Of a DNA stretch of 46,897 bases, positions 13,811 to 33,261 are shown piece by piece. The DNA is taken from the NCBI GenBank assembly GCA_025465535.1, contig JAODMY010000017.1:1-46897 (forward strand), read 5' to 3'. A model generated the notes under the pieces. That model was not told the DNA's origin, did not search any database, and saw only the letters and a program-made list of their open reading frames with translations. Origin of the DNA: Glaciihabitans sp. (GTDB lineage: Bacteria; Actinomycetota; Actinomycetes; Actinomycetales; Microbacteriaceae). Position 1 is the stretch's first letter. Every line of letters starts with the position of its first letter. Made by a program: the position numbers and the translations under genes.

Positions 13811-14737
13811 TCAGCCCTTCACGCCACCCGTTGCGAGGCCCGTCTGCCAGTAGCGCTGCAGGTACAGGAATGCGATCACCAACGGAATGACGGAGATGAA
13901 CGACCCCGTAATGACGATCGCGAACAATGGCTGCGCACTGCCTCCCGCGCCGGCCGCCTGCTGCTCCTGCGCGAGGCCAACGGTCAGCGGGTACAGGTTG
14001 GAGGTGCTCAGCATGATCAGTGGAAGAAAGTAGTTGTTCCAGGTCGCGACGAGCGCGAACAGGAACACCGTAACGATTCCGGGCGCCATCAGCCGCAGGC
14101 CGACCGAGCGGAAAATGCGGAACTCGCTTGCACCGTCGATCCGAGCGGCTTCGATGAGGCTGTCCGGGATCGCGCTGGCCGCGTAGACCCGCATCAGGTA
14201 CACACCAAACGGACTCACCAATGACGGCAGGATCACCGCCAGCGGAGTGTTCGTGAGGTGCGCGGAGGCGAACAGGAGATAGGTGGGGATCGCCAGCGCC
14301 GTCGTCGGAACCATGATGGCGCCGAGGATGCCGCTGAAGATCGCGGTGCCGCCAGGGAACTTGTACTTCGCAAACGCGTATCCCGCTGCCGCGGCAAGCG
14401 CTGCGGCTCCGACGGCGCTCACCCCCGCGTAAAACACGGTGTTGAGCAGCCACTGCCAGAACACCCCGCCCTGGTAGCTGAACACGTCGGCAATGTTATT
14501 GAACAGGTTGAAATCGTGCGCGAACCAATATCCGAAGGTCGAGAACAGGTCGGTGTTCGACTTCGTGGATGAGATCACGAGCCAGACGAGCGGCAGCAGG
14601 AAATACAGTGCGCACGCGAACATCGCGATGGTCAGGATGTTGCTGCGCTCCTTTCCCGGGCGCAGTCGCCGCCTGTGATTCCTCTCGCGTTCCACGGTCT
14701 GCCCCTGGACGGGGGAAGCGATCTCCGAGGTGGTCAT
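13811..14737 (-). CDS. Carbohydrate ABC transporter permease (MalG type)
   Basis: A 308-residue inner-membrane permease with about six membrane helices. The EAA loop for the ATPase is seen in 'IPDSLIEAARIDGASEFRIFRSVGLRLMAPG'. The N-terminus is basic and cytoplasmic, then 'IAMFACALYFLLPLVWLVISS' forms the first helix, as in MalG-type (CUT1) subunits. ATG 14737 overlaps the stop of the preceding permease gene (ATGA), which indicates translational coupling. The frame is open far upstream, but that part duplicates the other permease gene in another frame and is not coding. Its partner is the MalF-type subunit encoded just before. Confidence 0.9.
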   Translation of the reverse strand: MTTSEIASPVQGQTVERERNHRRRLRPGKERSNILTIAMFACALYFLLPLVWLVISSTKSNTDLFSTFGYWFAHDFNLFNNIADVFSYQGGVFWQWLLNTVFYAGVSAVGAAALAAAAGYAFAKYKFPGGTAIFSGILGAIMVPTTALAIPTYLLFASAHLTNTPLAVILPSLVSPFGVYLMRVYAASAIPDSLIEAARIDGASEFRIFRSVGLRLMAPGIVTVFLFALVATWNNYFLPLIMLSTSNLYPLTVGLAQEQQAAGAGGSAQPLFAIVITGSFISVIPLVIAFLYLQRYWQTGLATGGVKG

Positions 14738-15687
14738 GCCGCACCCTGCTCTCGTTCGCGACGCTGCGCGGTCAACTGGACGATGTAGGAGACGATCATG
14801 ATCACGAGCCCGAGGAGGAACGCGATCGCCGCCGCGTAGTTGATGTTCTGGTTGATGAACGCCAGGTTGTAGGCGTACAGGTTGGGCGAGAAGGCGGTGC
14901 CGATCGCGTTTGGTGCGAGGTTGTAGAGCAGCTGCGGTTCGCTGAACAGTTGGAAGCTGCCGATAATCGAGAAGATCACGGTGAGCAGGATTGCCGGACG
15001 AATGGCCGGGATCTTGACGCTCCAGGCGATTCGCCACTGGCCGGCGCCATCGACCTGCGCCGCATCGTAGAGCTCGGTCGGGATCGACCTGAGCGCCGAA
15101 AACAGGATGATCATGTTGTAACCGACGAACTCCCACGTGACGATATTCATGATCGACCCGAGCACCAGGTTGCTCGAAAGCAGATTCGGCGCCTGTAGCC
15201 CGAGGGCCGAGATCACCTGCGTGATGGGGCCGAAGTTGCTCCCGTAGATATATCCCCACAAGAGTGTGGCCACCACCGCCGGCACCGCGTACGGGACGAA
15301 GATCGCCAGCCTGATGAACTTCGCCGCACGCACCCGCCCACTGTCGAGAGCCAGCGCAAAGAACAGCGCAAAGATCAGCATGATCGGCACCTGGATGACG
15401 AGGAACAGTCCCATCCGGCCGACGCCGCCGAGGAACAGTGGATCCGTGACGGCCTGCACGTAGTTCGAGAGGCCAACGAAGACGGTGCCTCCGACGATCT
15501 GCGTTCTAAAGAAACTGAGAACACCCGAATAGACCAGTGGAACAACGAGCATCGCGAGGAAGACGATGACGAACGGGAGTATCAGCGCATAGGCGGCAAC
15601 CGTTTGATTTCTCCTCGACTCGTTGCGCCTTCGAGGCGGATGACCGCTGGCCGCTGCTGCGGTTTTCGATGCGACGGCAGAACTCAT
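14734..15687 (-). CDS. Carbohydrate ABC transporter permease (MalF type)
   Basis: A 317-residue permease with about six membrane helices. 'TVAAYALILPFVIVFLAMLVVPLVYSGVLSFF' is the first helix, and 'IPTELYDAAQVDGAGQWRIAWSVKIPAIRP' is the EAA loop that contacts the ATP-binding subunit. ATG 15687 is chosen because GGGAG lies 8 bp upstream; upstream in-frame codons lack a site. It belongs to the CUT1 oligosaccharide importers and would form a heterodimer with the next permease. No ATPase gene is present in the locus, so it probably uses a shared MsmK/UgpC-type ATPase encoded elsewhere. Confidence 0.9.
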   Translation of the reverse strand: MSSAVASKTAAAASGHPPRRRNESRRNQTVAAYALILPFVIVFLAMLVVPLVYSGVLSFFRTQIVGGTVFVGLSNYVQAVTDPLFLGGVGRMGLFLVIQVPIMLIFALFFALALDSGRVRAAKFIRLAIFVPYAVPAVVATLLWGYIYGSNFGPITQVISALGLQAPNLLSSNLVLGSIMNIVTWEFVGYNMIILFSALRSIPTELYDAAQVDGAGQWRIAWSVKIPAIRPAILLTVIFSIIGSFQLFSEPQLLYNLAPNAIGTAFSPNLYAYNLAFINQNINYAAAIAFLLGLVIMIVSYIVQLTAQRREREQGAA

Positions 15688-15760
15688 GACAAACTCCCTT
15701 GTTCGAATGAGGTGAGGTGGGCGGCCAGACATCCTCCGACCGCCCACCCGATGCACCTGG

Positions 15761-17110
15761 CTAGTTGGTCTTCACAGTGAAGCCCTGCTGTTTTCCGTAG
15801 GCAACGACCTGCGCCTGCCACGCCTTCAGCCCCGCCAGAAGGTCTGTCTTGTCGGCGATCGCCTTACCCAGGGTGTTGTTGAAGCTCGAGTACGCGTAAT
15901 CCATGTACGGGAGCCACTGGAAGTTCGGATCCACCGTGCCCGAGATCGTGTTGTAGAGAGCATTGACCGTTTGTCCACCGAAGAAATCCGACTTCTGTCC
16001 GGAGAAAGCGGGAGAGGCAAGAGTCGCCTTGAGCGGTGGGAACAGCGACTGCTTCGTCGCAAGGGTCAACGACGATGTGGAGTCGTGGTTGACGAACTTG
16101 GTGAACTCGGCTGCGGCAATCTTGTTTTTGCTGCTGTTAAGCACGGAGTCAGCGGAACCGCCCCAGAAGCTCGAAGTCTGGGCTCCGGTCGCCGAGTACT
16201 GCGGTAGAGGAGACGCCGTCCAGAGTCCGCTCGTTTTCGCCACGGTCCCCTGCAGGAACACCGGGCCCCACGCTGCGCCGAGCCAGCCCGCGTATTTGCC
16301 GGACGCGAGCCCCTGGTACCAGTCGTTGTCGAAGTCGGGGTCGACGGCGACGAGACCCTTCTGGATCAGCGTGTTCCAGTAGGTCGCAACCTTTTGGTCA
16401 ACGGCGCTGTCGATGTTGACCGTGACCGTCTTCTTTCCGTCGTAACCGAAGGGACGGCCTCCGGCCTGCCACAGCAATCCGACAAACTGGCCGGGGTCAT
16501 TACCCGGCATGTCAGAAATGTACGAGCCCGTCTTGTCTTTGATCGTCTGCGCGGCGGTCGCGTATTCGGCCCAGGTGGCCGGTGGCGTGACGCCGGCCTT
16601 TTTCAGGATGTCGCTGCGGTACAGGTTGCCCATGGGCCCGAAGTCCTGCGGGATGCCGTAGACGGCACCATTCTTGGAGACCTGGCCCCAGATCGACGAC
16701 ACGTAGTCCGCCTTGATCTTGTCTGCGCCGTAGGGCACGAGATTCTGGAGGTCGCTCTGGAACGAGGGAATGTACTGGTACTCGATCTGCGCGACATCCG
16801 GGCCCTGTCCGGCCTTGATGGCGGTACGCAGCTTCGTGTATTCGGGCAAACCCTGGCCAACATTGGAGAGCTTCACCGTGATCTTGGGGTACTTGGCCTC
16901 AAACTGTTTGACCTCGGTGCTGAAGTTTGGCACCCATGACCAAACCGTGATGGTTGTCGGCGTATTCATCGCCTTGGTGATTTCTGCCTGGGTGACGGGA
17001 GTGTCACTCGAGCTGGACGCGCTCGGTGCCGTGCATCCGGTCAGTAGCAAGGTGGAAATCGCTGCAATGGATCCCAGCGTCACTGCTGTTCGTGTTGCTT
17101 TGCTTCGCAT
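15761..17110 (-). CDS. Sugar ABC transporter substrate-binding lipoprotein
   Basis: A 449-residue extracellular solute-binding protein (family 1). The signal peptide is clear: a basic start (MRSKATR), a hydrophobic core and the lipobox LLTGC, with Cys26 as lipid anchor. 'TITVWSWVPNFSTEVKQFEAKYPKI' starts the first lobe. 'YGIPQDFGPMGNLYRSDILKKAGV' is the hinge region typical of oligosaccharide binders. Many aromatic residues (e.g. GPMGNLY, FWGGSADS) suit stacking on sugar rings. AGGAA lies 6 bp before the ATG. Between galactosidase and permease genes, the likely ligand is a galactoside or arabinoside oligosaccharide. Confidence 0.92.
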   Translation of the reverse strand: MRSKATRTAVTLGSIAAISTLLLTGCTAPSASSSSDTPVTQAEITKAMNTPTTITVWSWVPNFSTEVKQFEAKYPKITVKLSNVGQGLPEYTKLRTAIKAGQGPDVAQIEYQYIPSFQSDLQNLVPYGADKIKADYVSSIWGQVSKNGAVYGIPQDFGPMGNLYRSDILKKAGVTPPATWAEYATAAQTIKDKTGSYISDMPGNDPGQFVGLLWQAGGRPFGYDGKKTVTVNIDSAVDQKVATYWNTLIQKGLVAVDPDFDNDWYQGLASGKYAGWLGAAWGPVFLQGTVAKTSGLWTASPLPQYSATGAQTSSFWGGSADSVLNSSKNKIAAAEFTKFVNHDSTSSLTLATKQSLFPPLKATLASPAFSGQKSDFFGGQTVNALYNTISGTVDPNFQWLPYMDYAYSSFNNTLGKAIADKTDLLAGLKAWQAQVVAYGKQQGFTVKTN

Positions 17111-17159
17111 GTCTTCCTATTCCTTTGTTCGGTCCGGGTGTCGGCTGTGACGACCGGAG

Positions 17160-19274
17160 TTATCTCTCGATCAGGATCCGCACGGACCATGGCCCGAGCG
17201 AAAGGGCGGTTCCTGTCAGCGCGTGACCTGTGTCCAGGTCGACGAGCTCGGTCGTTGACGAGGGAAGCGGGAGCGACGACTCGACACTGCTCCAGTTGTG
17301 GATGAACCACACTCGCGACCCGTTCTCGACGACGCCGGAACTGACGATCACCCCGGGGGCATTTGAGCTGTCCCACTCGGACGCGATCGGGGAGGCGACC
17401 ATCCACTCCGCGAGCGCCCTGCCGAATGCCGGGTTGGGAACGGTGCCAACCGTGGTGATCCGACCCTGGCCGGCCGATGCAGTCGTGACCGCCGGGAATC
17501 GTCCGAGCTCCGGATGCTCGTATCGCGCGATCACCTCCGCGCCGTCGACGATCAGTCCGTCGGCCCAGGCGGTGGCCGCGGCGGCAGCGGGCCACTCAAC
17601 GTCGCCGGCCCCAACGACCGGAAGACTGCCGTGCAGGTTCGAGAACTCTTCGTACCAAACCTGTGCCGCGTCGGAGAGTCCTGCCGGCGCGACGGCGAGG
17701 CGAGCCCGCCCCTCGACGTCGGCGTATCCCGTGCGGGGCCCGAGAACGAGGTGGCCGCCGGCTTCGGCGTAGGCGCGCAGGGCGTCGAGTTCGGAGTCGG
17801 TCGAGATGTAGAAGCCGGGCACCACGAGGACGGGCAGCGTGCGCGCGAGTTCGCCTGCATCGAGAGCGACGAATTGATCGACATGCAGGACGCGGGCCTG
17901 GCGGCCCGACTCGATGACTCCCCGGTAGAAGCTGTCGAAGATGCGATCGTACGAACTCGGGTCCCCCGCGCCATCCGGTGTCGTCAGAGGCGGAAAGAAC
18001 TGAAACGCGAACCTGCTGTCGGTCGAAAAGAGAAAGCCGATATCGGCATCCGGCGTGTAGCCCTCGATCACAGGGCCGAGCTTCTTGAGCGTCGCTCCGA
18101 GCGCCGCGACCTCTCGGTAGATTCGACCCGGCTTCTGGCTGTGCGGCAGGACGCCACCCCAGTAGGTCTCTGTGCCGAAGTGCAGGGTGTGCCAGTGCCA
18201 GTACTCGATCATCGCGGCGCCACGGGAGATCAGGGCGAGTGCGGCCTGGGCGAGCTGCCCGGGATAGGGCGGGTAGTTGATCGACGGGCCACCGATCGAT
18301 GCGGCGTCGGTTTCCGTAACCAGGAAGCGCTCCTGTTTTGTCGAATAGAGCCGGTCTGCCTGCTTGATGAGGCCCCACACGCCCGTGCTTGTGAAGTGCG
18401 CGACGGACGGCGCCTCCTTCGTCGCGTCGAGGCCGTCCTGCATCGCGTAGTAGGGGTTGCCGGCGGTGACGTCGAGATCGGCCGCGAGCTTCAGGTCGTT
18501 CAACGCCGGCCGGCCATACGCGATACAAGTGGTCACGAACTGGTCAGCGCTGGCGTACTGCCGCACGATGTCGGCCTGCCACGCGATGTACTCGGTCGTG
18601 ACATCCGCCTGGTAACGCCGCCAGGCCAGGTCGTACTGCGGTTGCCAATTGCCGTCCGGCACCCACAGCTCGTTCCACTCGGCGATGCGGTGGGACCAGT
18701 AAACGAGACCCCACTCTTCGTTGAGGCGCTCGGGCGTTCCATACTTCTGACGCAGTCGGTTGACGAATTCCGCGAAGGTACCCGCGTTGTGCAGGAGCAG
18801 CAGGCCGGGCTCGTTGTCCACCTGGAATCCGATGATGGCCGGGTGGTCGGCGTAGCGCTGCGTGATCTTGCGGATGACCCGCTCGGCATAGTGACGGAAA
18901 ACGGGACTCGAGTAGTCGGCCTCCTGGCGGCCACCCCACGGCATCGGCTTGCCCGATTCGGTCTCCCCCGCGAGCTCCGGATGCTTCTTCTGGAGCCACG
19001 GCGGAATCGCGTACGTCGGGGTGCCAAGGATGACGGAGATTCCGCGCTTGTGCGCGCCGTCGAGAACCGGCTGGAGCCAGTCCAGATCGAAGTCCCCGTC
19101 CCGGGGCTCCCAGGTGGACCAGACCGACTCGCCCACCCTGATCACGGTGAAGCCGGCCTCTTGCATCAGATCGAGGTCTTCGTCGAGGCGATCCGTCGTC
19201 TGGTATTCGGTGTAGTAGGCGGCACCGAAGAGGATGCCAGAGATGCGGGATTCTTCAGGACGGAACCGTGCCAT
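17160..19274 (-). CDS. Beta-galactosidase, glycoside hydrolase family 42
   Basis: A 704-residue GH42 enzyme that releases terminal beta-D-galactose; some members also take alpha-L-arabinopyranosides. The (beta/alpha)8 barrel has the acid/base Glu155 after Asn154 in 'QVDNEPG' and the nucleophile Glu321 in 'FLVTETDAAS'. Middle and C-terminal parts match the trimerisation domain (from about 'PDADIGFLFSTDSRFAF') and a small beta domain. It lacks a signal peptide, so it acts in the cytoplasm on imported oligosaccharides. It is the first gene after the LacI-controlled promoter and precedes the binding protein gene by 49 bp. Confidence 0.93.
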   Translation of the reverse strand: MARFRPEESRISGILFGAAYYTEYQTTDRLDEDLDLMQEAGFTVIRVGESVWSTWEPRDGDFDLDWLQPVLDGAHKRGISVILGTPTYAIPPWLQKKHPELAGETESGKPMPWGGRQEADYSSPVFRHYAERVIRKITQRYADHPAIIGFQVDNEPGLLLLHNAGTFAEFVNRLRQKYGTPERLNEEWGLVYWSHRIAEWNELWVPDGNWQPQYDLAWRRYQADVTTEYIAWQADIVRQYASADQFVTTCIAYGRPALNDLKLAADLDVTAGNPYYAMQDGLDATKEAPSVAHFTSTGVWGLIKQADRLYSTKQERFLVTETDAASIGGPSINYPPYPGQLAQAALALISRGAAMIEYWHWHTLHFGTETYWGGVLPHSQKPGRIYREVAALGATLKKLGPVIEGYTPDADIGFLFSTDSRFAFQFFPPLTTPDGAGDPSSYDRIFDSFYRGVIESGRQARVLHVDQFVALDAGELARTLPVLVVPGFYISTDSELDALRAYAEAGGHLVLGPRTGYADVEGRARLAVAPAGLSDAAQVWYEEFSNLHGSLPVVGAGDVEWPAAAAATAWADGLIVDGAEVIARYEHPELGRFPAVTTASAGQGRITTVGTVPNPAFGRALAEWMVASPIASEWDSSNAPGVIVSSGVVENGSRVWFIHNWSSVESSLPLPSSTTELVDLDTGHALTGTALSLGPWSVRILIER

Positions 19275-19344
19275 ATTTCAAAACCTCATTGTTTTATCGA
19301 ATCGCCTACGGCACCACGGTCGCCCCAGCGCCCGCAGTGGTGAG

Positions 19345-19363
19345 AAAATTTCCGAAAACATCG
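19345..19363 (-). promoter_or_regulatory. Second, imperfect LacI-type operator
   Basis: AAAATTTCCGAAAACATC resembles the perfect operator at 19376-19397 and has the same central CG. The two centres are 33 bp apart, about three helical turns, so two LacI dimers could bind the same face of the DNA. Confidence 0.5.
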
Positions 19364-19375
19364 TGGTTCGACGGT

Positions 19376-19397
19376 AAAATGTTTTCGAAAACATTTT
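19376..19397 (-). promoter_or_regulatory. LacI-family operator (22-bp perfect palindrome)
   Basis: The half-site AAAATGTTTTC (19376-19386) is followed directly by its reverse complement (19387-19397), with the CG centre typical of LacI/GalR operators. It lies just downstream of the predicted transcription start of the galactosidase operon and 70 bp after the end of the lacI-type gene, so bound repressor would block initiation or early elongation. Confidence 0.85.
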
Positions 19398-19409
19398 GTG
19401 CTGCATCCG

Positions 19410-19438
19410 AATATACGACCGTTCCGGTCGAGCGCCAA
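19410..19438 (-). promoter_or_regulatory. Promoter of the galactosidase operon
   Basis: Read leftwards, TTGGCG (19438-19433) is the -35 and TATATT (19415-19410) the -10, with a 17-bp spacer (4/6 and 5/6 matches to consensus). Transcription would start near 19403, just ahead of the operator palindrome, leaving a leader of about 130 nt before the GH42 start codon. Confidence 0.7.
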
Positions 19439-19466
19439 CAAAAACTTTTTGGACGTTACCGATTCG

Positions 19467-20522
19467 TCATGACCGCGGCGTTGCCGGCGGTGGACCGGAT
19501 GAGGCGCGAACGACCAGGGAAACCGCGGTGGTGTTTGAGTCGAGCGCTTCGGTGGCAGCACCGAACATGCCAAGCAACGACTGCACGGCTCGACGCCCGA
19601 TCTTTTCGTAGTCCTGTCGAATCGTTGTCAGGGGAGGAATAAAGAATTCAGCTTCGGGAATATCATCGAACCCCACGACACTCACGTCAGCCGGGACGCG
19701 AACACCCCGTTCGGAAAGCGATCGCAGCACACCCAATGCGAGCTGGTCGTTGTCGGCGACGATCGCCGTGATCCCTGGATCGAGGTCGAATGCCTGCATC
19801 GCCCGAAAACCCTCCGCGGCCGACCAGCTGGTGCCAACCAACTCCTCCGCGACCAGCTTGTGGCTCTGCATGCAACTCCGGTACGCCCAGCCTCGATTCC
19901 GCGCGACCACCCACTGCAGCGGCCCGGTGAGGTGCAGGATGCGACGATGTCCGAGGGAGACCAGATGCTCGACGATCATCCGAGTGCCGGTCGCGGATGA
20001 GCCCTCGATCCCGCTCTCGTTCTCGAACTCCTCCGGCTCATTGTCCAGAAACAGCGGGACCGAGAATTGCGTCTGCTCAAGGACTCTCCGGAGTTGGTCC
20101 GTCGGCGCGTTCGCCAGGATCCCTGCGAAGTCGTTCTGATCGAGCAGATCGATGGCGGCGGCGAACTCATCCTCTTTGAACGGGTCGAGACTCACGATGT
20201 CGAGCACATAGCCGGCATCGCGCGCGGCCTGGCTTTCCGCCTGGACGATCTTGTTCGGTCCGACCTCGTAGAGGTCGTAGGCGAGTGCACCGAGTCGATG
20301 TGACGTACTCGCCTTGAGCGACCGCGCCGTCATGTTCGGTCGGTAGTTGAGTTCGCTCAACGCCCGTTCAACGCGCATCCGAGTCTCCGGACGGATGCCA
20401 GCGAACCCACTCAGGAATCGCGAGACCGTCTGGTGCGAGACCTCCGCGGCACGCGCTACGTCGTAAATCGTCGCGCGCTTGATGGTGGCAGGCGCCCGCC
20501 AAGCTTTCGGCGACTCATCCAC
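19467..20522 (-). CDS. LacI-family transcriptional regulator
   Basis: A 351-residue repressor. The N-terminal helix-turn-helix spans about 18-39 (TIYDVARAAEVSHQTVSRFLSG), followed by the hinge helix 'YRPNMTARSLKAS'. The periplasmic-binding-protein-like effector domain ends with 'DVSVVGFDDIPEAEFFIPPLTTIRQD'. It starts at GTG with GAGGAGG 4 bp upstream. It lies directly upstream of the galactosidase gene on the same strand, and its presumed operators are at 19345-19397. The inducer is probably the imported sugar or a cleavage product. Confidence 0.93.
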   Translation of the reverse strand: MDESPKAWRAPATIKRATIYDVARAAEVSHQTVSRFLSGFAGIRPETRMRVERALSELNYRPNMTARSLKASTSHRLGALAYDLYEVGPNKIVQAESQAARDAGYVLDIVSLDPFKEDEFAAAIDLLDQNDFAGILANAPTDQLRRVLEQTQFSVPLFLDNEPEEFENESGIEGSSATGTRMIVEHLVSLGHRRILHLTGPLQWVVARNRGWAYRSCMQSHKLVAEELVGTSWSAAEGFRAMQAFDLDPGITAIVADNDQLALGVLRSLSERGVRVPADVSVVGFDDIPEAEFFIPPLTTIRQDYEKIGRRAVQSLLGMFGAATEALDSNTTAVSLVVRASSGPPPATPRS

Positions 20523-20564
20523 CGATCCTCCTCAGACGGGTCCGACAATACTCCTTGGCATCTA

Positions 20565-20999
20565 TCAGGCGATGGCGAAATCGAACACCTGGACGCCGGC
20601 GAGCAACGGACCGGCAAACGCCTTGAATGCGGCGTGCTCGTGGTCGAAGTGCGCGGGATCCGCGACGATCGGTTCGCCGACATAGAAATTCCGGTCACCC
20701 TGGGAGGCGAAGGTGACGACGAAGCCGACCTCGTATCCGTCCGGCGCGACCTCGCCGCTGATCTGGTCACCGCTCTCGATCGAAACGATGTATCGCTCGC
20801 CGGCCCGTTCGGTGGCGGCGAGCGCGTGAAACCTGCGTGACAGTTCGCTCCGGTCGGCCTCGGATGCGGTGTCGGCAAACTTGAACAGCACGATGTGCCG
20901 GACCGTGCCGCTGCGATAGTCGCGAGCGGTGAATTGTTCTGTGCCGACCTCCGCAAGTTCGGTCGCGAGGAGTGCTGCGGGATTCGTCATGCTTGTCAT
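20565..20999 (-). CDS. Dabb-family (stress-responsive alpha/beta barrel) protein
   Basis: A 144-residue protein whose residues from about 33 on form a ferredoxin-like alpha/beta barrel of the Dabb family: 'VRHIVLFKFADTASEADRSELSRRFHAL', then 'YEVGFVVTFASQGDRNFYVGEPIVADPAHFDHEHAAFKAF'. Such proteins dimerise; many are of unknown function, and some occur in sugar-catabolic loci. The first 30 residues are outside the domain. Two starts are possible (ATG 20999 or 20990), the second with GAAAG at a better distance. It sits between the dehydratase and the lacI-type gene on the same strand, suggesting a role with the sugar pathway. Confidence 0.8.
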   Translation of the reverse strand: MTSMTNPAALLATELAEVGTEQFTARDYRSGTVRHIVLFKFADTASEADRSELSRRFHALAATERAGERYIVSIESGDQISGEVAPDGYEVGFVVTFASQGDRNFYVGEPIVADPAHFDHEHAAFKAFAGPLLAGVQVFDFAIA

Positions 21000-21118
21000 C
21001 TTTCGTGGTGCTCGGTCGAAGCGCTCGACGACTCTACTCTCGGAGCCTCGCGGTGGGGTCCCTCCATCGGGCGGGCGGCGGGGGCCCCGCCGAGACCACC
21101 CGTGACAACAGCCCGCTT

Positions 21119-22852
21119 TCAGTGCGACTCACGCGACACCGCGTCGCCGCTCGAGCCGACCAGGAAGTCCAGGTCCGCGCCGGTGTCGGCCTGCATCACG
21201 TGGTCGACATAGAGCCTGGTCCAGCCTCGCGTCGGCGCCGCGTAGGCCGCCACGCTTGTGGCGCTCTCAACTCGTGCCGCAAGTTCCTCCGGGCTGACGT
21301 CGACATTCAGCGACCTCGACTCCACGTCGAGGGTCACGATGTCGCCTGTCCGGATGTACGCCAGCGGTCCGCCGGCGGCCGCCTCGGGAGCGACGTGCAG
21401 GATGACGGTGCCGTACGCCGTCCCACTCATCCGGGCGTCACTGATTCGCACCATGTCGCGTACCCCCTGCTCGAGGAGTTTGCGCGGGAGTGGCATGTTC
21501 CCGACCTCGGGCATGCCGGGGTAGCCGCGCGGTCCGCATCCGCGGAGCACGAGCACGGAGTCTTTGGTCACGTCGAGGTCAGGGTCATCGAGCCGGTCGC
21601 GCATGTCCTCGATGCTGTCGAAGACGACCGCGGGACCCGTGTGGCTCAACAGCTCGGCGGTCGCAGCGGCCGGCTTGATGATTGCGCCACTGGGCGCGAG
21701 GTTTCCGCGGAGTACCGCGATGCCCGCATCCGGAAGCAGCGGAGCCTCCCGCGGATAGATGACTGTTGGGTCAAACACCGGCTGGTCGTCGAGGTAGTGC
21801 ACGAGGGGAACGCCGGTAACCGTGATGGGCTCCGGCCGGAGGAAATCCTTCACCTCGGCGAGCGCCGCGAGGACTCCCCCGGCACGGAATAGATCATCCA
21901 TCAGGAACTCGCCGGATGGCTGCAGATTGACCAGCAGCGGGACATCCTTGCCCGCGGCATCGAAGTCGTCGAGGGTCAGCTCGATCCCGAGTCGACCCGC
22001 GATGGCCAGCAGGTGGACGACCGAGTTGGTCGAACCTCCGACGGCGGCAACCGCGACGATCGCGTTCAGGAACGACTCCCGCGTCATGATGTCGCTCGGC
22101 CTGCGGTCCTCCCTGATCATGTTCACGATCAGGCGGCCGGTCTCGTGCGACATGGCCTGCAGCCGCGCGTCCGGTGCCGGCGTTCCCGCGAAGCCGGGGA
22201 TCGTCATCCCGAGCGCCTCGGCGACGACCGCCATCGTCGATGCCGTCCCCATCGTGTTGCAATGGCCCTTGCTACGGATCATGGACGACTCGGACTTCAG
22301 GAACTCGCCGTTCGTGATCTGGCCGCCGCGAACCTCTTCGCTCAGTCGCCAGACATCCGTTCCGCAGCCCAGCGCTTCACCGCGAAAATGACCGGTCAGC
22401 ATCGGCCCGCCGGGGACCACGATGGCCGGGATGTTGACGGATGCCGCGGCCATCAGCAGGGCAGGAATCGTCTTGTCACACCCGCCAAGCAGCACGACGC
22501 CGTCGATCGGGTTCGCCCGCAGCATCTCCTCGATGGCCATCGCGGCCATGTTGCGCCAGAGCATGGCGGTCGGCTTCAGGACGGTCTCGCCAAGGGAGAC
22601 GACGGGCAGGTTATAGGGAACGCCGCCCGCCTCCCAGATGCCTTTCTGCACACTCGCCGAGACCTCGTCGAGGTGCATGTTGCACGGTGTCAGATCGGAT
22701 GCGGTGTTCGCGATCGCGATCTGGGGCTTCGTGCCGTCCAGCGCGTTTTCGGGGAGCCCCCGTCGCATCCACGCTCGGTGAATATAGGCGTTGCGATCCT
22801 GGCCGACGTACCATTGCGCGCTTCGAAGATCATCCACGGTGCTTCCTTGCAT
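21119..22852 (-). CDS. Dehydratase of the IlvD/Edd family, probably aldonate dehydratase
   Basis: This 577-residue iron-sulfur enzyme should remove water from a sugar acid to give a 2-keto-3-deoxy acid. The three cluster cysteines typical of the family are Cys57 (LTPCNMHL), Cys125 (LLGGCDKTIPA) and Cys198 (KGHCNTMGTAS). The context and the 'PCNMHLDEVSASVQKGIWEAGGVPYNLPVVSLGE' start resemble L-arabonate/D-xylonate/D-galactonate dehydratases more than IlvD of branched-chain synthesis. ATG 22852 lacks a good site; GTG 22837 has AAGGAAG about 5 bp upstream and may be the true start. It is divergent from a zinc dehydrogenase that could make its aldonate substrate. Confidence 0.85.
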   Translation of the reverse strand: MQGSTVDDLRSAQWYVGQDRNAYIHRAWMRRGLPENALDGTKPQIAIANTASDLTPCNMHLDEVSASVQKGIWEAGGVPYNLPVVSLGETVLKPTAMLWRNMAAMAIEEMLRANPIDGVVLLGGCDKTIPALLMAAASVNIPAIVVPGGPMLTGHFRGEALGCGTDVWRLSEEVRGGQITNGEFLKSESSMIRSKGHCNTMGTASTMAVVAEALGMTIPGFAGTPAPDARLQAMSHETGRLIVNMIREDRRPSDIMTRESFLNAIVAVAAVGGSTNSVVHLLAIAGRLGIELTLDDFDAAGKDVPLLVNLQPSGEFLMDDLFRAGGVLAALAEVKDFLRPEPITVTGVPLVHYLDDQPVFDPTVIYPREAPLLPDAGIAVLRGNLAPSGAIIKPAAATAELLSHTGPAVVFDSIEDMRDRLDDPDLDVTKDSVLVLRGCGPRGYPGMPEVGNMPLPRKLLEQGVRDMVRISDARMSGTAYGTVILHVAPEAAAGGPLAYIRTGDIVTLDVESRSLNVDVSPEELAARVESATSVAAYAAPTRGWTRLYVDHVMQADTGADLDFLVGSSGDAVSRESH

Positions 22853-22917
22853 TCCGTCAATTAGTGCGGCGTATTACGCTTCCAAATAATGGCACACGTG
22901 TTGATCGTCCTGGGCTG

Positions 22918-23937
22918 ATGCGCGCGTTCGTGGTCACCGCCCCGCGGCGGGGCGAGGTGCGGGATGTCGACGACCTCGTTCCCTCGGCCGGAGAGTTGCT
23001 GCTCGAGGTCGAGCGGGTCGGAATCTGTGGAACCGACATCGAGCTGTACACCGGCGAGATGGCCTACTTCGCCCAGGGGAAGACGCACTTCCCACTGCGA
23101 CTCGGCCACGAATGGGTCGGTCGGGTCACCGCGGTTGGCCCGGACACGGACGAGTCGTGGATCGGAAAGCGGATCACCGGCGACACAATGCTGGGCTGCG
23201 GCGTCTGCCGGTTCTGCCGCGCAGGCCGGCACTACCTCTGCCCGTTCCGCGAAGAGGTCGGGATCACGGATGGCTGGCCGGGCGCCCTCGCCGAGCAACT
23301 GCTTATCCCTGCACGATTCGCGCACGTCATCCCCGACCGGGTGAGCGTGACGAGCGGAGCCATGGTCGAGCCCGGTGGCAACTCCCTTCGAGCGGCCGAG
23401 GCGACTTTGGCTGGACCGAATAGTCGAGTGCTCATCCTCGGCTCGGGGACGATCGGACTCCTCGCCGCGCAGTTCGTGCTCGCCAGGGGCGCAGAGGTCC
23501 ACCTCGCTGGCAAGCGTGCGGGATCCCTGCGGCTCGGTCGGGAGCTGGGCGTCCAGTTCGCCCATGACCTCGACGAGATCGCCGCATCCGACGAACGCTT
23601 CGACGCCGTGATCGACGCGACAAGCCTGGCCGGCAGCCCGGCCCTCGCGGCACGACTCGTGGATCCCGGCGGCCGCATCGTCCTCATCGGGCTCTCCGGA
23701 AAGCCAAGCCTGATCGACTCTCGCGACCTCGTACTGAACGACGTGACAGCCATCGGCATCCTGTCTGCCTCGCCCGGTCTCCGCGGCGCAATCGACCTGT
23801 TCGCCTCGGGAGCCGTCGATCCCGACGCGATCGTGAGCGAGGTTATCGGTCTCGACGAGGTGGGCAGCCGCCTCGACGGCAACCGTGGCCCGAACGCCGG
23901 GCCCGGCCCAAAGGTTCACGTCGATCCTCGACTCTGA
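22918..23937 (+). CDS. Zinc-dependent alcohol/sugar dehydrogenase (MDR family)
   Basis: A 339-residue medium-chain dehydrogenase. Catalytic zinc ligands are Cys37 (GICGTD) and His64-Glu65 (GHEW). The structural zinc lobe has Cys94, 97, 100 and 108 (GCGVCRFCRAGRHYLC). The NAD-binding motif is 'VLILGSGTIGLLAAQF', and 'MVEPGGNSLRAAE' is the usual EP motif. The likely substrates are sugars or polyols, in line with the divergent aldonate dehydratase. ATG 22918 begins the conserved fold; the frame is open far upstream, but that part lies antisense to the dehydratase. No strong ribosome site is seen, and an AAATAAT box at 22884-22890 could give a short leader. Confidence 0.88.
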   Translation: MRAFVVTAPRRGEVRDVDDLVPSAGELLLEVERVGICGTDIELYTGEMAYFAQGKTHFPLRLGHEWVGRVTAVGPDTDESWIGKRITGDTMLGCGVCRFCRAGRHYLCPFREEVGITDGWPGALAEQLLIPARFAHVIPDRVSVTSGAMVEPGGNSLRAAEATLAGPNSRVLILGSGTIGLLAAQFVLARGAEVHLAGKRAGSLRLGRELGVQFAHDLDEIAASDERFDAVIDATSLAGSPALAARLVDPGGRIVLIGLSGKPSLIDSRDLVLNDVTAIGILSASPGLRGAIDLFASGAVDPDAIVSEVIGLDEVGSRLDGNRGPNAGPGPKVHVDPRL

Positions 23938-24040: not shown

Positions 24041-26317
24041 ATGACTGAACCGGCGTTCTGGCCATGGTCGGCAATCTACGGGGCGGTCGTTCTTGTACTC
24101 GTGGGGATCGCATGGGTAGTCGAGCGACGGCAACCCGGCACTGCCCGTCGGTTCGCCCTTGTCGTCGCGCTCGGGTCTGCCGTCGTCTACCTCACCTGGC
24201 GTCTCATCTTCACGATCCCGTCGGACAATTGGGTATCCCTGGTCGCGGGCATAATCCTCGTCACGGCGGAGTTCGCGGGGCTATTGCAGATGGTGGCCTC
24301 CACGGTGATCGGGTGGCAGGTCGACCGACGCACGCCCCTTCCGGTGCACGATCTGGCGCACATCCCGTCGGTTGACATCTACATCGCGACCTACAGCGAA
24401 TCGATCGCGGTGCTCGAACCCACTCTCGCCGGGGCGATGGGCATCCGATATCCCGGGAAGATCACCGTGTACGTGTGCGACGACGGGAGCCGGCCGCAAG
24501 TGCGCGAGCTCACCAGACGATACGACGCCGAGTACCTCGAACGCGAGGAGCACGAGCACGCGAAGGCAGGCAATCTCAACAATGCTCTTGTGCACAGCGC
24601 CGGGGAACTCGTTGTCACTCTCGATGCCGACATGATCCCGACCGTCGATTTCCTGGAGAAGACCGTCGGCTACTTCATCGATGAGAACCTTGCGTTCGTG
24701 CAGGCACCACAGGCTTTCCACAACCAGGATGCGTTCCAGTACAACCTGTTTTCCGGCGACGTTCTGCCGAACGAGCAGGACTACTTCATGAGAACCCTTC
24801 AGCCCCCCAAGGAGCGCTTCAACGCGGTGATGTACGTCGGAAGCAACACGGTGTTCCGGCGTTCGACGCTCGACGCCATCGGCGGCTTTGCCACGGGAGT
24901 CATCACCGAAGACATGGCCACCGGGATGCTCCTCCAGGCAGCCGGCTACCGGTCGGCCTTCGCGCCTGACATCATCGCCGCCGGGCTCGCACCGGAAAAC
25001 TTCGCCGACCTGCTCACCCAGCGCACGCGCTGGGCGCGCGGCAACATCCAGACCGCGCGCAAGTGGAACCCCTTCACCCTCCCCGGCCTGACCTGGATGC
25101 AGCGCTGGATCTATGCCGACGGCATCGTGTACTGGCATTTCGGAATCTTCAAGATGGTGTTCATCCTTGCCCCGCTGGTGTACCTGATCGGTGGCGATCC
25201 CGTGCTGCACGCCGCGGTGTCCTCCTTCCTTGCAATCTGGCTTCCCTACTTCGTTGCATCGTTCGTGCGCATGAAATTGTTGTCAGCAGGCCGGCGAAGC
25301 TTCACTTGGACACACGTGTACGAGATCGCCATGGCACCGACGATCGCGATTGCGATCATCGGCGAATGGCTTGGATTCAGCACGAAGGTGTTTGCCGTGA
25401 CGCCCAAGGGCGTCTCGACGGAGAAACTCAACTTCCGCTGGTTGATCGCGTTGCCCCACGTCATACTTCTTGGCCTGTCGCTGTTCGCCCTGCTCAACGC
25501 CTTTGTGCTCTCGGCGGGACGGTTCACTTTTGATTCCCTGGTGATCACATCCTTCTGGACCCTCTACAACATCGTCGGCCTGGTCATGGCGATATTGGTC
25601 TGTCTCGAGCGGCCCCGCCAGCGACGCACCGAACGCACGGAGGTCGACCTGCCGATCGGGGCGCAGCTGTGGGAGGGCGCGCCTGTCGAGGGTCGGATTC
25701 TCGACTTGAGCTTCAACGGTGTGCGACTCGCCCTCCCATGGTCGAACACCTTCGGTCCAGCGGATGCCGCCCACCAGCTGGTGCGCAAGGGGAAGCTCGA
25801 AATTGACCGAATCGGCACGATCTCCGGGAACAGCCGGTGGATCAGCGAGAGCGCCGATGGCATGCTCGTCGGATTCGAATTCGACGAACTCGCCCCCGAC
25901 CAGGCCGTGAGGCTGGTCGGCGCGATCTCCGGCTCGCCCCACTGGGTGAGACATGACCGAGAAGACAAGGCACGGCTCGCCGGCGCGGCCGCACGTACGG
26001 TGATCGGCGCTGCGCGGCGCGTCAATCCGAGCCTGAGATCAGAATTCCGGGCGAAGGGTCGACGTATCGCCCAACTGCATCCGTCGGGGACGAAAATTGC
26101 GACGCCGTTTGCCGTGCATCTCGATGACCTCAGTTTCGGGGGATGCCGCGTCCGCTCGCGCCACCGAATCAACTTCGGCGATGAGTACGGGGTAGAGCTC
26201 CATGGGCACCACAGCTTCAGTTCGCCCGCCGAGGTGCGATGGGTGCACCGACGTGGCGGGCTGTATGTCGCAGGACTGAAATTCAAACGGCACGGCGAAC
26301 TGAAAGTGCCGGCATGA
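24041..26317 (+). CDS. Cellulose-synthase-like glycosyltransferase with two PilZ domains
   Basis: A 758-residue membrane GT2 processive glycosyltransferase. Two N-terminal helices pairs precede the catalytic domain, which has all polymerase motifs: DDG (147-149), DAD (195-197), TED (289-291) and QRTRW (327-331). About five helices follow (360-520). Then come two PilZ-like c-di-GMP receptor modules: RxxxR at 528-532 with DLSFNG at 555-560, and RxxxR at 666-670 with DLSFGG at 696-701. BcsA normally has one. No BcsB or cellulase gene is nearby, so the product may be cellulose or another beta-glucan. ATG 24041 follows GGGGG. Its stop overlaps the start of the LOV-GGDEF-EAL gene. Confidence 0.85.
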   Translation: MTEPAFWPWSAIYGAVVLVLVGIAWVVERRQPGTARRFALVVALGSAVVYLTWRLIFTIPSDNWVSLVAGIILVTAEFAGLLQMVASTVIGWQVDRRTPLPVHDLAHIPSVDIYIATYSESIAVLEPTLAGAMGIRYPGKITVYVCDDGSRPQVRELTRRYDAEYLEREEHEHAKAGNLNNALVHSAGELVVTLDADMIPTVDFLEKTVGYFIDENLAFVQAPQAFHNQDAFQYNLFSGDVLPNEQDYFMRTLQPPKERFNAVMYVGSNTVFRRSTLDAIGGFATGVITEDMATGMLLQAAGYRSAFAPDIIAAGLAPENFADLLTQRTRWARGNIQTARKWNPFTLPGLTWMQRWIYADGIVYWHFGIFKMVFILAPLVYLIGGDPVLHAAVSSFLAIWLPYFVASFVRMKLLSAGRRSFTWTHVYEIAMAPTIAIAIIGEWLGFSTKVFAVTPKGVSTEKLNFRWLIALPHVILLGLSLFALLNAFVLSAGRFTFDSLVITSFWTLYNIVGLVMAILVCLERPRQRRTERTEVDLPIGAQLWEGAPVEGRILDLSFNGVRLALPWSNTFGPADAAHQLVRKGKLEIDRIGTISGNSRWISESADGMLVGFEFDELAPDQAVRLVGAISGSPHWVRHDREDKARLAGAAARTVIGAARRVNPSLRSEFRAKGRRIAQLHPSGTKIATPFAVHLDDLSFGGCRVRSRHRINFGDEYGVELHGHHSFSSPAEVRWVHRRGGLYVAGLKFKRHGELKVPA

Positions 26318-28242
26318 CAGGAACCGAGGTGACCGAATCACTGCTCGCTCTCGCCCTCGAGACCGTGTCCGAGGGGTCGCTCATCACCGACTCGGACCGC
26401 AACACGATTTATGCCAACGCCGCGTTCACCCAGATCACGGGATACACGCAATCCGAGATCCTGGGCTCGAACTGCAGAATCCTGCAGGGGGCGGACACGT
26501 CTCGCGAAGAGGAGCAACGGATGCGCGCGGCGCTTGACGCCGGGGAAACATTCGAGGGCACGGTACTCAACTACCGCAAGGATGGAACATCCTTCTGGAA
26601 CCATTTGACGATCACACCGTTGAAGGACGCCGCAGGCGCGATCACCAACTTCGTCAGCGTTCAACGCGATGTCACCAACATCGTGCAGGAAGGCCAATCA
26701 CTGTCGCACGAGGCCAGCCACGATCTGCTCACCGGCCTGCCCAATCGCGAGGGATTGCGTCGATACCTTCGCACGGAATTCGCCGCCGCCGCCCAGAGCG
26801 GCAATCTCGTGGCGGTGGGCATCATCGATCTCGACGACTTCAAGGTCGTCAATGACGTGCACGGACATCTCTCCGGGGATTCCGTGCTCACACAATTTGC
26901 CGACCGCGTGCGCACGATGGTGCGGCGGGGAGACTTCGTGGCGCGGCTCGGCGGGGACGAGTTCGTCGTTGTCATCTCCGGCCTTCCGCCCGAAGCGCCG
27001 ACGGCCGAACTCGCAAGCATTCTCGAGCGGATCCACGCCGCAGTCGAGTCGCCGTTCGAAGTCGACGATGGCGCGTCGGTATCGGTGGGCATGAGCATGG
27101 GGGTGGCGTTTTTCCCGAGCGACGGCGTTACCGGACCCGACCTGCTGCGCACCGCCGATGCCTCCCTGTATCGGGTGAAGCGCGCGGAGGGGCGCACTCA
27201 CTGGTGGGAGAGCGCACGTCCGCAGGATGTCGTGGGTTCCGACGGCAGCACGGAGTCGACCGAGACCGACGGCCCGCTTGGCGAGCTGGTGATGTTCATG
27301 CAGCCCATCGTCGACCTGCAGACCGGGCGGGTCACCAACGTGGAGGCGCTCGCCAGGATTCGCCGTCCCGACGGTGTCATCGAAACGCCGGACTCGTTCC
27401 TGCCCTACTACACGCGAAAACAGTTGGTGCAGGTATTCAAGGATGGTCTCGACCAGGCGCTGATGTGGGCATCCAAGTGGGACAGCGACGGCGTTGAACT
27501 GAACGTCTCGGTGAACATATCGCCCGAGCTGCTGGCCGAGCCCGAAAGCGCCTCCTGGGTTCAGCAGGCTCTCGCACGCCACCGGATGGATGCACACCGC
27601 CTCAGCCTCGAACTTCTTGAAACCCAGGAACTTGACATCGCGGCAAGCGAGCAAACGGTGGCGGAACTCGTCCGCCTCGGGGTGAAAATCCATCTGGATG
27701 ACCTGAGCTCTGGGTTCGGCGCTCTGAAGCGAATCACCGACATCCCATTTGATGTGATCAAGATCGACCGTCGAATCTTCGAGTCGTCGCACACTCGCCC
27801 GCTGCAGGTCCTCACCGTCTTAGCGGCCATCACCAAGCTGGGATCCGACGGCGGCTATGGCGTTGTGGTCGAGGGAATTGAGGATCGCGAACGCCTCGAG
27901 GTGAGCTCAGTGCTCGGTGCCGGTTCGGGCCAGGGATACCTGTTCGCGCGCCCGATGGCCCCCGAGGATCTGACGGACTGGGTGGCGCACTTCACGATGC
28001 CGTATCGGGATGGCGAGTTGAAGACCGCGCTCGGCGCGCTCGCGTACCACTGGTTGCACAGCGGCACCAGCGGCGTCATTCACCCCACACGCGACGCGTG
28101 TCCCCTCACCGGCTACTTCTCCGACTCAGGGCCGGAGATCAGGGAACTGCACGATTGCCTGCACTCGGCCGATGGGACGGGGAACCCGGCGAGCGCCGCC
28201 ATCACATCCTGGCTGGTCGAGCAAATCCAGCGCGGCGACTAG
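26314..28242 (+). CDS. LOV-GGDEF-EAL protein (blue-light-responsive c-di-GMP enzyme)
   Basis: A soluble 642-residue protein. Residues 10-123 form a LOV domain: GSNCRILQ places the photo-adduct Cys54, with Asn86, Asn96 and Gln117 as flavin contacts. The spacing from Cys (32, 42, 63) equals that of oat phototropin LOV2 (C450, N482, N492, Q513). GGDEF is intact at 213-217 with an inhibitory RxxD site at 204-207. The EAL domain keeps E344-A-L, Asn401, D462-D463, Lys483, Glu520 and Gln540, though loop 6 is divergent (DDLSSGFG instead of DFGTGYSS). About 90 C-terminal residues are unassigned. ATG 26314 overlaps the glycosyltransferase stop (ATGA), so the two are translationally coupled. Confidence 0.9.
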   Translation: MTGTEVTESLLALALETVSEGSLITDSDRNTIYANAAFTQITGYTQSEILGSNCRILQGADTSREEEQRMRAALDAGETFEGTVLNYRKDGTSFWNHLTITPLKDAAGAITNFVSVQRDVTNIVQEGQSLSHEASHDLLTGLPNREGLRRYLRTEFAAAAQSGNLVAVGIIDLDDFKVVNDVHGHLSGDSVLTQFADRVRTMVRRGDFVARLGGDEFVVVISGLPPEAPTAELASILERIHAAVESPFEVDDGASVSVGMSMGVAFFPSDGVTGPDLLRTADASLYRVKRAEGRTHWWESARPQDVVGSDGSTESTETDGPLGELVMFMQPIVDLQTGRVTNVEALARIRRPDGVIETPDSFLPYYTRKQLVQVFKDGLDQALMWASKWDSDGVELNVSVNISPELLAEPESASWVQQALARHRMDAHRLSLELLETQELDIAASEQTVAELVRLGVKIHLDDLSSGFGALKRITDIPFDVIKIDRRIFESSHTRPLQVLTVLAAITKLGSDGGYGVVVEGIEDRERLEVSSVLGAGSGQGYLFARPMAPEDLTDWVAHFTMPYRDGELKTALGALAYHWLHSGTSGVIHPTRDACPLTGYFSDSGPEIRELHDCLHSADGTGNPASAAITSWLVEQIQRGD

Positions 28243-31549: not shown

Positions 31550-31790
31550 GTGCTTCCTCACAATCGGGGCCCGATTCGGCCCCCAACTAAGTCTTAACCC
31601 CATCGCGCCGACACCGCCAGCGCTTTACGCCGTATTGCGAGCCGCGACGAACCGGGCGGGCGATCCGAACGCGGCCACGAGGGGAGCTGGGCGAGGGAGA
31701 GTAATATGAGCGCACGGCGCGATGAGGCGCTCGGATCCGCCGATCTTGCCCGGTTTTGCTCAACAACAATTGTTCGTTGAAAGCCCCATC

Positions 31791-32480
31791 ATGGTTGCAG
31801 GTCTCCCGCCCTCACTCCCCTCACTCGATATGGATGACCCTGCACGTCTTTGTGGGGCGTTCGTCGACGCTCTCTTTGTGACCGGCGCCTCGATCTCGGT
31901 CTTCGGACATGACGGACACCAGTCCACAATTTGCGCCACCGACGCGGTTGCCGCACGAGGCGACACGCTTCAGTTCGAACTGGGCGAAGGGCCCCACTGG
32001 GAGGCTCTCGCAACCGGTTCCCCGGTGTTGGCACCGGATATCTCGAACCAGGGACGTTCGCAATGGCCCATGTTCTCGGTCGCTGCCCAGGAGATCGGCA
32101 TGGCGGCCGTTTTTGCCTTCCCCATGACGATCGGAGCCGTCACGATCGGTGTGGTCGATCTCTACTGCGATGCCCCGAGGCGTTTGGATGCTCACCAGGT
32201 CGCGATCGCCGCGTCCATGGCGGGACGCACTGCCGCGCCCGCGGTTCGTCTGGCCATGCGCTCGGCCGAGGATCCCTTTTCCGAGGAGCATGAAAGGGCT
32301 CCAGCGCTTCGTCGCGAGGTACACCAGGCGACCGGGATGATCCAGGCCCAGCTGGACATCAACGCGACCGAGGCATTCACCCGTTTGCGGGCGTACTCCT
32401 TCACCTCCGGCCGCACGGTCGTAGACATTGCCCATGACGTCGTCACCCGGGGGATGAATTTCAATGCGCTACGCGAATAA
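31791..32480 (+). CDS. GAF and ANTAR domain protein
   Basis: A 229-residue putative transcription antiterminator. Residues about 10-150 form a GAF sensor ('LEFGEGPHWEAL'-like region ELGEGPHWEALATGSPVLAPDI, 'VFAFPMTIGAVTIGVVDLY'). Residues about 170-225 form an ANTAR RNA-binding domain (RREVHQATGMIQAQLDINATEAFTRLRAYSF, then 'VVDIAHDVV'). ANTAR proteins bind paired hairpins in mRNA leaders and prevent termination. ATG 31791 has only a weak GAAAG; an in-frame ATG at 31722 is an alternative. It is followed 28 bp later by a second GAF-ANTAR gene, so the two are probably co-expressed. Confidence 0.85.
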   Translation: MVAGLPPSLPSLDMDDPARLCGAFVDALFVTGASISVFGHDGHQSTICATDAVAARGDTLQFELGEGPHWEALATGSPVLAPDISNQGRSQWPMFSVAAQEIGMAAVFAFPMTIGAVTIGVVDLYCDAPRRLDAHQVAIAASMAGRTAAPAVRLAMRSAEDPFSEEHERAPALRREVHQATGMIQAQLDINATEAFTRLRAYSFTSGRTVVDIAHDVVTRGMNFNALRE

Positions 32481-32508
32481 CCGAGAACACCGAGGAGTAT
32501 TAAGGAAT

Positions 32509-33261
32509 ATGGACGGAACATCGCGCGAAGCACGGGTCAACACAGCATTCGTTGCGGTTGCAGACACGCTCACGACAGATTTCGATGTAGTCGACCTCCT
32601 TCACACGCTGGTCGAACAGTGCACGGAAATCCTGGATACCGACGCGGGGGGCCTGATGCTTGTCGACGGCGACGGTCAGCTGCAGCTGATGACGTCCACC
32701 AGTGAGGGCGCCGACCTGGTGGAAATCATGCAGATCGACGCGGCGAGCGGCCCGTGCATCGAGTGCTTCACCACGGGCACCGCCATATCCGTTCCTGATA
32801 TCCAGGAAACCGGAGGTCGGTGGCCTGCGTTCCAGAAGGCCGCACTCCAACAGGGGTTTTATTCGGCCCATGCGACGCCACTCAAGCTGCGCGGCCAGGT
32901 CATCGGAACGATGAATCTTTTCAGCACCAAGCGCGCAGCCCTCAGCGAGCGAGACGCGGCCCTCGGCCAGGCACTGGCGGATGTCGCAACCATCGGCATC
33001 CTGCAGGAGCGACTGGTCAAGGAGGGAAACATCATCATCGAGCAGCTTCACTTCGCCCTCGATAGCCGAATCCTCATCGAACAAGCTAAGGGAATGATCG
33101 CCCACTCCCTGTCCATCGACGTGGGCGAAGCCTTCTCGGTTCTCCGCAGCCATGCCAGAACCAATAACCTGACCATCCGATACGTCGCGGAAGAAATCAG
33201 CAACAGAAGGTTGAGCGTCCGCAGGATTGCGGACGAGATTGCCATCGTCCCAACCGTGTAA
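32509..33261 (+). CDS. GAF and ANTAR domain protein
   Basis: A 250-residue paralog of the upstream gene product. The GAF domain spans about 10-165 ('VDLLHTLVEQCTEILDTDAGGLMLVDGDGQLQLMTSTSEGADLVEIMQIDAASGPCIECFTTG', with two cysteines in GPCIEC that could sense redox or bind a ligand). A linking helix 165-185 leads to an ANTAR domain (LDSRILIEQAKGMIAHSLSIDVGEAFSVLRSHARTNN, 'IRYVAEEI'). It differs from the first by longer N- and C-terminal parts. GAGGA lies 12 bp before the ATG. A strong terminator directly follows at 33273, so the pair forms a complete transcription unit. Confidence 0.87.
   Translation: MDGTSREARVNTAFVAVADTLTTDFDVVDLLHTLVEQCTEILDTDAGGLMLVDGDGQLQLMTSTSEGADLVEIMQIDAASGPCIECFTTGTAISVPDIQETGGRWPAFQKAALQQGFYSAHATPLKLRGQVIGTMNLFSTKRAALSERDAALGQALADVATIGILQERLVKEGNIIIEQLHFALDSRILIEQAKGMIAHSLSIDVGEAFSVLRSHARTNNLTIRYVAEEISNRRLSVRRIADEIAIVPTV

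Follow-up and report, generated by a model that had tools for sequence, protein, structure and literature searches.

The window, meaning the whole stretch of 46,897 nucleotides of Glaciihabitans DNA analyzed here, carries two overlapping genes on the forward strand. The first encodes a polysaccharide synthase with PilZ domains and the second encodes a LOV-GGDEF-EAL protein. The features of these genes, with the evidence for each in brackets, are as follows:

24041..26317, + strand: BcsA-like processive GT2 polysaccharide synthase, 758 aa, with two C-terminal PilZ domains (Pfam, TIGR03030, BcsA alignment)
24350..25228, + strand: GT2 catalytic core, with DDG147-149, HAKAGN, DAD195-197, TED289-291 and QxxRW327-331 (invariant in 6 orthologues)
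25391..25411, + strand: gating-loop motif FAVTPKG (aa 451-457), aligning with FxVTxKG of BcsA (BcsA and orthologue alignment)
25613..25918, + strand: PilZ domain 1, with RxxxR 528-532 and DLSxxG 555-560 (Pfam, alignment, predicted beta barrel)
26033..26287, + strand: PilZ domain 2, with RxxxR 666-670 at its N-terminal edge and DxSxxG 696-701 (Pfam, alignment, predicted barrel)
26314..26317, + strand: ATGA start/stop overlap of the two genes (sequence)
26314..28242, + strand: LOV-GGDEF-EAL protein plus a C-terminal domain, 642 aa (Pfam PAS_9, GGDEF and EAL; alignment; structure model)
26347..26679, + strand: LOV domain, with C54, N86, N96 and Q117 (PAS_9 79.9 bits; phototropin LOV 97 bits; invariance)
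26713..27189, + strand: GGDEF domain with GGDEF motif and RxxD I-site, preceded by a 21-residue LOV-GGDEF linker (profile match, alignment)
27280..27954, + strand: EAL domain with a complete set of catalytic residues (profile match, alignment, structure search)
28006..28239, + strand: helical C-terminal domain, residues 565-642, with H579-W, C596-P-L-T and H613-xxx-H617 (alignment, structure prediction)

Pfam matches in the synthase were to GT2 families, to Cellulose_synt and, twice, to PilZ. When six synthases were aligned, the motifs of a BcsA-like processive GT2 enzyme (DDG, HAKAGN, DAD for the DxD motif, TED, QxxRW and the FAVTPKG gating loop) were all invariant. Both PilZ domains have the RxxxR and [DN]xSxxG motifs of c-di-GMP receptors in 6/6 orthologues. 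The original prediction had placed processive GT2 and c-di-GMP-binding motifs in this gene, and all of them are present. The synthase aligned with the E. coli BcsA at 305 bits and with the R. sphaeroides BcsA at 262 bits. Against TIGR03030, the BcsA equivalog model, it scored 465.1 bits over residues 17-660, which is under the curated cut-off of 699.1. Because this cut-off was not reached, the enzyme is BcsA-like while lying outside the BcsA cellulose synthase equivalog, and its polymer may differ from cellulose. The AlphaFold model of the synthase was poor (pLDDT 62) and was drawn on only for the two PilZ barrels.

The residues of the LOV-GGDEF-EAL protein were checked in an alignment containing the window protein, its four pair orthologues described below, and a stand-alone LOV-GGDEF protein and a stand-alone EAL protein from other family members. 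The LOV domain has the PAS fold, the adduct Cys in NCRxLQ and the flavin-contacting Asn, Asn and Gln expected of a photoactive LOV domain. Cys54, Asn86, Asn96 and Gln117 are separated by 32, 10 and 21 residues, exactly the oat phototropin LOV2 spacing that had been claimed, and are invariant in the five pair proteins and in the stand-alone LOV-GGDEF protein. We take their counterparts in oat phot1 LOV2 to be C450, N482, N492 and Q513. As predicted, the GGDEF domain is intact and has its RxxD inhibitory site: the GGDEF motif, the Mg/GTP residues (D172, N180 and D189) and I-site residues R204 and D207 are invariant wherever the domain occurs in the alignment. The EAL domain had been credited with most catalytic residues, which was too cautious, since all ten that were checked (E344, N401, E433, E436, D462, D463, K483, D485, E520 and Q540) are present and are invariant wherever the domain occurs. 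Its loop 6 reads DDLSSGF, not DDFGTGY. Every aligned protein that carries both domains has 21 residues in its LOV-GGDEF linker, the count starting at the Asp of D(I/V)(T/S) and ending at the Leu position of DxLT. This length is that of the short-linker class of LOV cyclases and of previously studied LOV-GGDEF-EAL proteins (PMC10396304).

The C-terminal domain of this protein went unmentioned in the original prediction. Residues 565-642 were predicted as a helical bundle in the structure model, and H579-W, C596-P-[LI]-T and H613-xxx-H617 are kept in 6/6 proteins, including a stand-alone EAL protein (G037, L052 1501-2520). Among 300 family genomes, clear matches to the domain were confined to proteins with this type of EAL domain. 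By our reading, its H..C..HxxxH pattern resembles that of the CZB zinc-binding domain. Assignment to CZB was rejected, as residues 565-642 matched nothing by sequence in Pfam or the PDB, even with the E threshold raised to 10. Foldseek matches with the whole LOV-GGDEF-EAL model were dominated by GGDEF-EAL. That the His and Cys residues form a metal site is a guess.

A search of actinomycete genomes found the gene pair in four other actinobacteria at 53-74% identity, the named ones being Microbacteriaceae. In 300 genomes of the same family, synthase orthologues close to that of the window were found in G145, G074 (Yonghaparkia sp. Root332) and G006, and named records added Salinibacterium soli WY-16 and the MAG F1-120 (Actinomycetota) as pair carriers. 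The LOV-GGDEF-EAL gene directly follows the synthase gene in the window, G145, S. soli, the MAG and Root332. The genes share ATGA in the window, where the predicted overlap of 4 bp has the correct coordinates, and also in S. soli and the MAG; in Root332 the junction reads GTGA, and in G145 a gap of 61 bp separates the genes. Flanking genes vary between the pair loci, with some neighbours common to Root332 and the MAG. Its occurrence in differing gene contexts shows that the pair is not a chance arrangement, and the two genes are a conserved unit, a point the original prediction had not made. In G006, the synthase gene is followed, at an ATGA overlap of 4 bp, by a PAS-PAS-PAS-GGDEF-EAL gene (L040 8573-13446) whose PAS domains are without the LOV Cys motif. 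In the synthase tree, the LOV-paired synthases form one clade (SH-aLRT 99) and the G006 locus is sister to it. At this sister locus the sensor is swapped and the c-di-GMP enzyme is kept.

The pair is rare. Full-length LOV-GGDEF-EAL orthologues were found in three of the 300 family genomes (the window's own, G145 and G074), and all three adjoin the synthase. Five sibling species from the same genus as the window were without the two-gene unit, three of these genomes being only 84-88% complete. Across the order (396 genomes), only a 41% relative was found outside the family, and matches across the phylum (34-39%) had no LOV neighbour in the stretches examined. Among the plasmid matches listed, there were only bcsA-type genes at ~32% identity. 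The G+C content of the pair (0.630, compared with 0.636 for the window) gave no sign of recent foreign origin, and an empty-site comparison in a sibling species using the downstream acetyl-CoA synthetase gene found no shared flank. Within the family, more distantly related BcsA-like genes lie near GGDEF or EAL genes in G190, G092, G013 and G124, suggesting that a synthase kept with c-di-GMP enzymes is a theme and LOV input one version of it. In G124, two EAL-type genes in a row precede the BcsA-like gene, all on one strand (L042 3114-6704).

The host genome (90% complete) contains two GGDEF, two EAL, no HD-GYP and two PilZ proteins, and both PilZ proteins are synthases. With so few c-di-GMP proteins in the host, the LOV protein is a large part of the recognizable c-di-GMP machinery. 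No promoter or terminator consensus was found. Upstream in the window lies a sugar-use block (14734-23937) with transport-type genes, a GH42 beta-galactosidase, a LacI regulator, an IlvD/Edd-type dehydratase and a zinc dehydrogenase, the gene for which ends ~100 bp before the synthase. At 31722-33261, two consecutive GAF-ANTAR genes overlap by 17 bp and encode probable RNA-binding antiterminators.

Blue light forms a flavin-cysteine adduct in LOV domains, GGDEF domains synthesize and EAL domains hydrolyze c-di-GMP, and c-di-GMP bound by PilZ opens the BcsA gating loop. The best explanation of the locus, to which we give a probability of roughly 70%, is a two-gene operon in which blue-light and c-di-GMP control would be dedicated to a beta-glucan-type polymer. 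In such an operon, the LOV domain would bind flavin and absorb blue light, and the excited domain would shift the balance between c-di-GMP synthesis by GGDEF and breakdown by EAL within one soluble enzyme. The co-expressed membrane synthase would sense c-di-GMP via its PilZ domains, relieving gating-loop inhibition as in BcsA, and extrusion of a cellulose-like beta-glucan would then track the light condition. We infer the flavin photochemistry, the catalysis and the PilZ activation of the synthase from knowledge of these families. Because of the conserved pair, the monophyletic synthase clade and the sensor-swapped sister locus, a dedicated sensor-to-synthase circuit is likely. Polymer synthesis at the membrane may be light-gated. 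Points against this explanation are the rarity of the pair, the TIGR03030 score, the 61-bp gap in G145 and the failure to find a promoter or terminator consensus. We argue that c-di-GMP synthesis and hydrolysis probably both matter, since both active sites are invariant and each half of the enzyme exists as a separate protein in relatives. A more elaborate version is doubtful. In it, one protein held beside the synthase would make and destroy c-di-GMP according to blue light, the C-terminal domain would add a second input (metal or redox), and the two PilZ domains would give a graded read-out.

In another possible explanation, the LOV protein would work chiefly as a phosphodiesterase that is activated by blue light and acts on the c-di-GMP pool of the whole cell. 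The adjacent synthase would be one target among several, and the role of GGDEF would be limited to GTP sensing or dimerization. SL2 of Synechococcus elongatus, the studied LOV-GGDEF-EAL protein of the same architecture, is a light-activated phosphodiesterase without light-regulated cyclase activity (Cao et al. 2010, as described in PMC8846402 and PMC10396304). The best NCBIfam model for the window protein is the phosphodiesterase DibA, although the score is under the cut-off, and the host has a second PilZ synthase. However, invariant GGDEF, GTP-site and I-site residues in all relatives, together with the stand-alone LOV-GGDEF protein with the same 21-residue linker (L050), suggest that cyclase activity is probably under selection, and a sensor swapped while the pairing was kept favours a dedicated link. 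We regard a whole-cell phosphodiesterase as rather unlikely. As to direction, the chance is about even that phosphodiesterase activity goes up in the light, as in SL2, and polymer goes down; a light-raised cyclase activity would be a less probable outcome, at around one chance in three, and a mixed or dark-only role takes the rest.

LOV and other PAS flavoproteins can also serve as redox sensors. The flavin might sense redox state or oxygen in vivo instead of light, so that the circuit would couple metabolism to polymer synthesis, and both the non-LOV PAS domains of G006 and a C-terminal domain that could bind metal fit this idea. It is improbable, because six proteins strictly keep the adduct Cys, both Asn and the Gln, residues that redox sensing alone would not require. 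That the genes are mere neighbours, co-transferred by chance with no functional link, is very improbable: the pair is accessory and patchily distributed, but across five loci whose flanks mostly differ it keeps the same order and, in most, the overlap of 4 bp; its synthase clade is monophyletic; and the divergence of its two proteins is correlated (r 0.95, ten pairs), although common ancestry by itself would produce such a correlation too.

That c-di-GMP acts locally, beside its own effector, is plausible, though a global pool could do the same in a genome that encodes so few c-di-GMP proteins. Local c-di-GMP signalling is recognized by direct enzyme-effector contact and a gene-specific phenotype (PMC8669469). 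In E. coli, DgcC/PdeK-BcsA and DgcJ-NfrB likewise dedicate a c-di-GMP enzyme to one polysaccharide synthase (PMC8669469); physical contact was shown there and no light sensor is involved. For the window pair, the analysis covered gene linkage.

SL2 shares with the window protein its domain order, 21-residue linker class and canonical LOV domain. The window protein differs in its extra C-terminal domain, its actinobacterial host and its gene overlap with its own PilZ synthase. The short-linker LadC diguanylate cyclases (AoLadC and DpLadC) have the same LOV-GGDEF module and 21-residue linker, but they are without EAL, and a synthase partner is not among their described features (PMC10396304). 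Short-linker LOV cyclases are activated ~15-fold by light (PMC10396304), and PDB 8c05 is the long-linker MsLadC. Among bacterial LOV proteins, approximately 18% have GGDEF, with or without EAL (PMC4844311). The synthase resembles the BcsA cellulose synthase (PDB 4hg6, 4p00, 7lby) in its GT2 motifs, gating loop and PilZ domain after the last membrane helices; it differs in its ~30% identity, its TIGR03030 score, its second PilZ domain and the absence of a BcsB gene adjoining it. In Thermosynechococcus, blue light is coupled to c-di-GMP, which acts via the PilZ cellulose synthase Tll0007 (PMC5871770). That system uses three cyanobacteriochrome photoreceptors (SesA/B/C), in contrast to a LOV domain in one GGDEF-EAL protein and a unit of two genes. 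A search of open-licence papers turned up no description of a PilZ synthase gene that overlaps one for LOV-GGDEF-EAL. The component parts all have precedents, and the conserved pairing appears to be undescribed. If true, actinobacteria would have a minimal connection of only two genes between blue light and extracellular polymer; it would be transplantable and a candidate for optogenetic control of polysaccharide production. Hosts with so few c-di-GMP proteins allow clean testing of c-di-GMP signalling specificity, and the sensor-swapped sister locus is a natural experiment on modular input.
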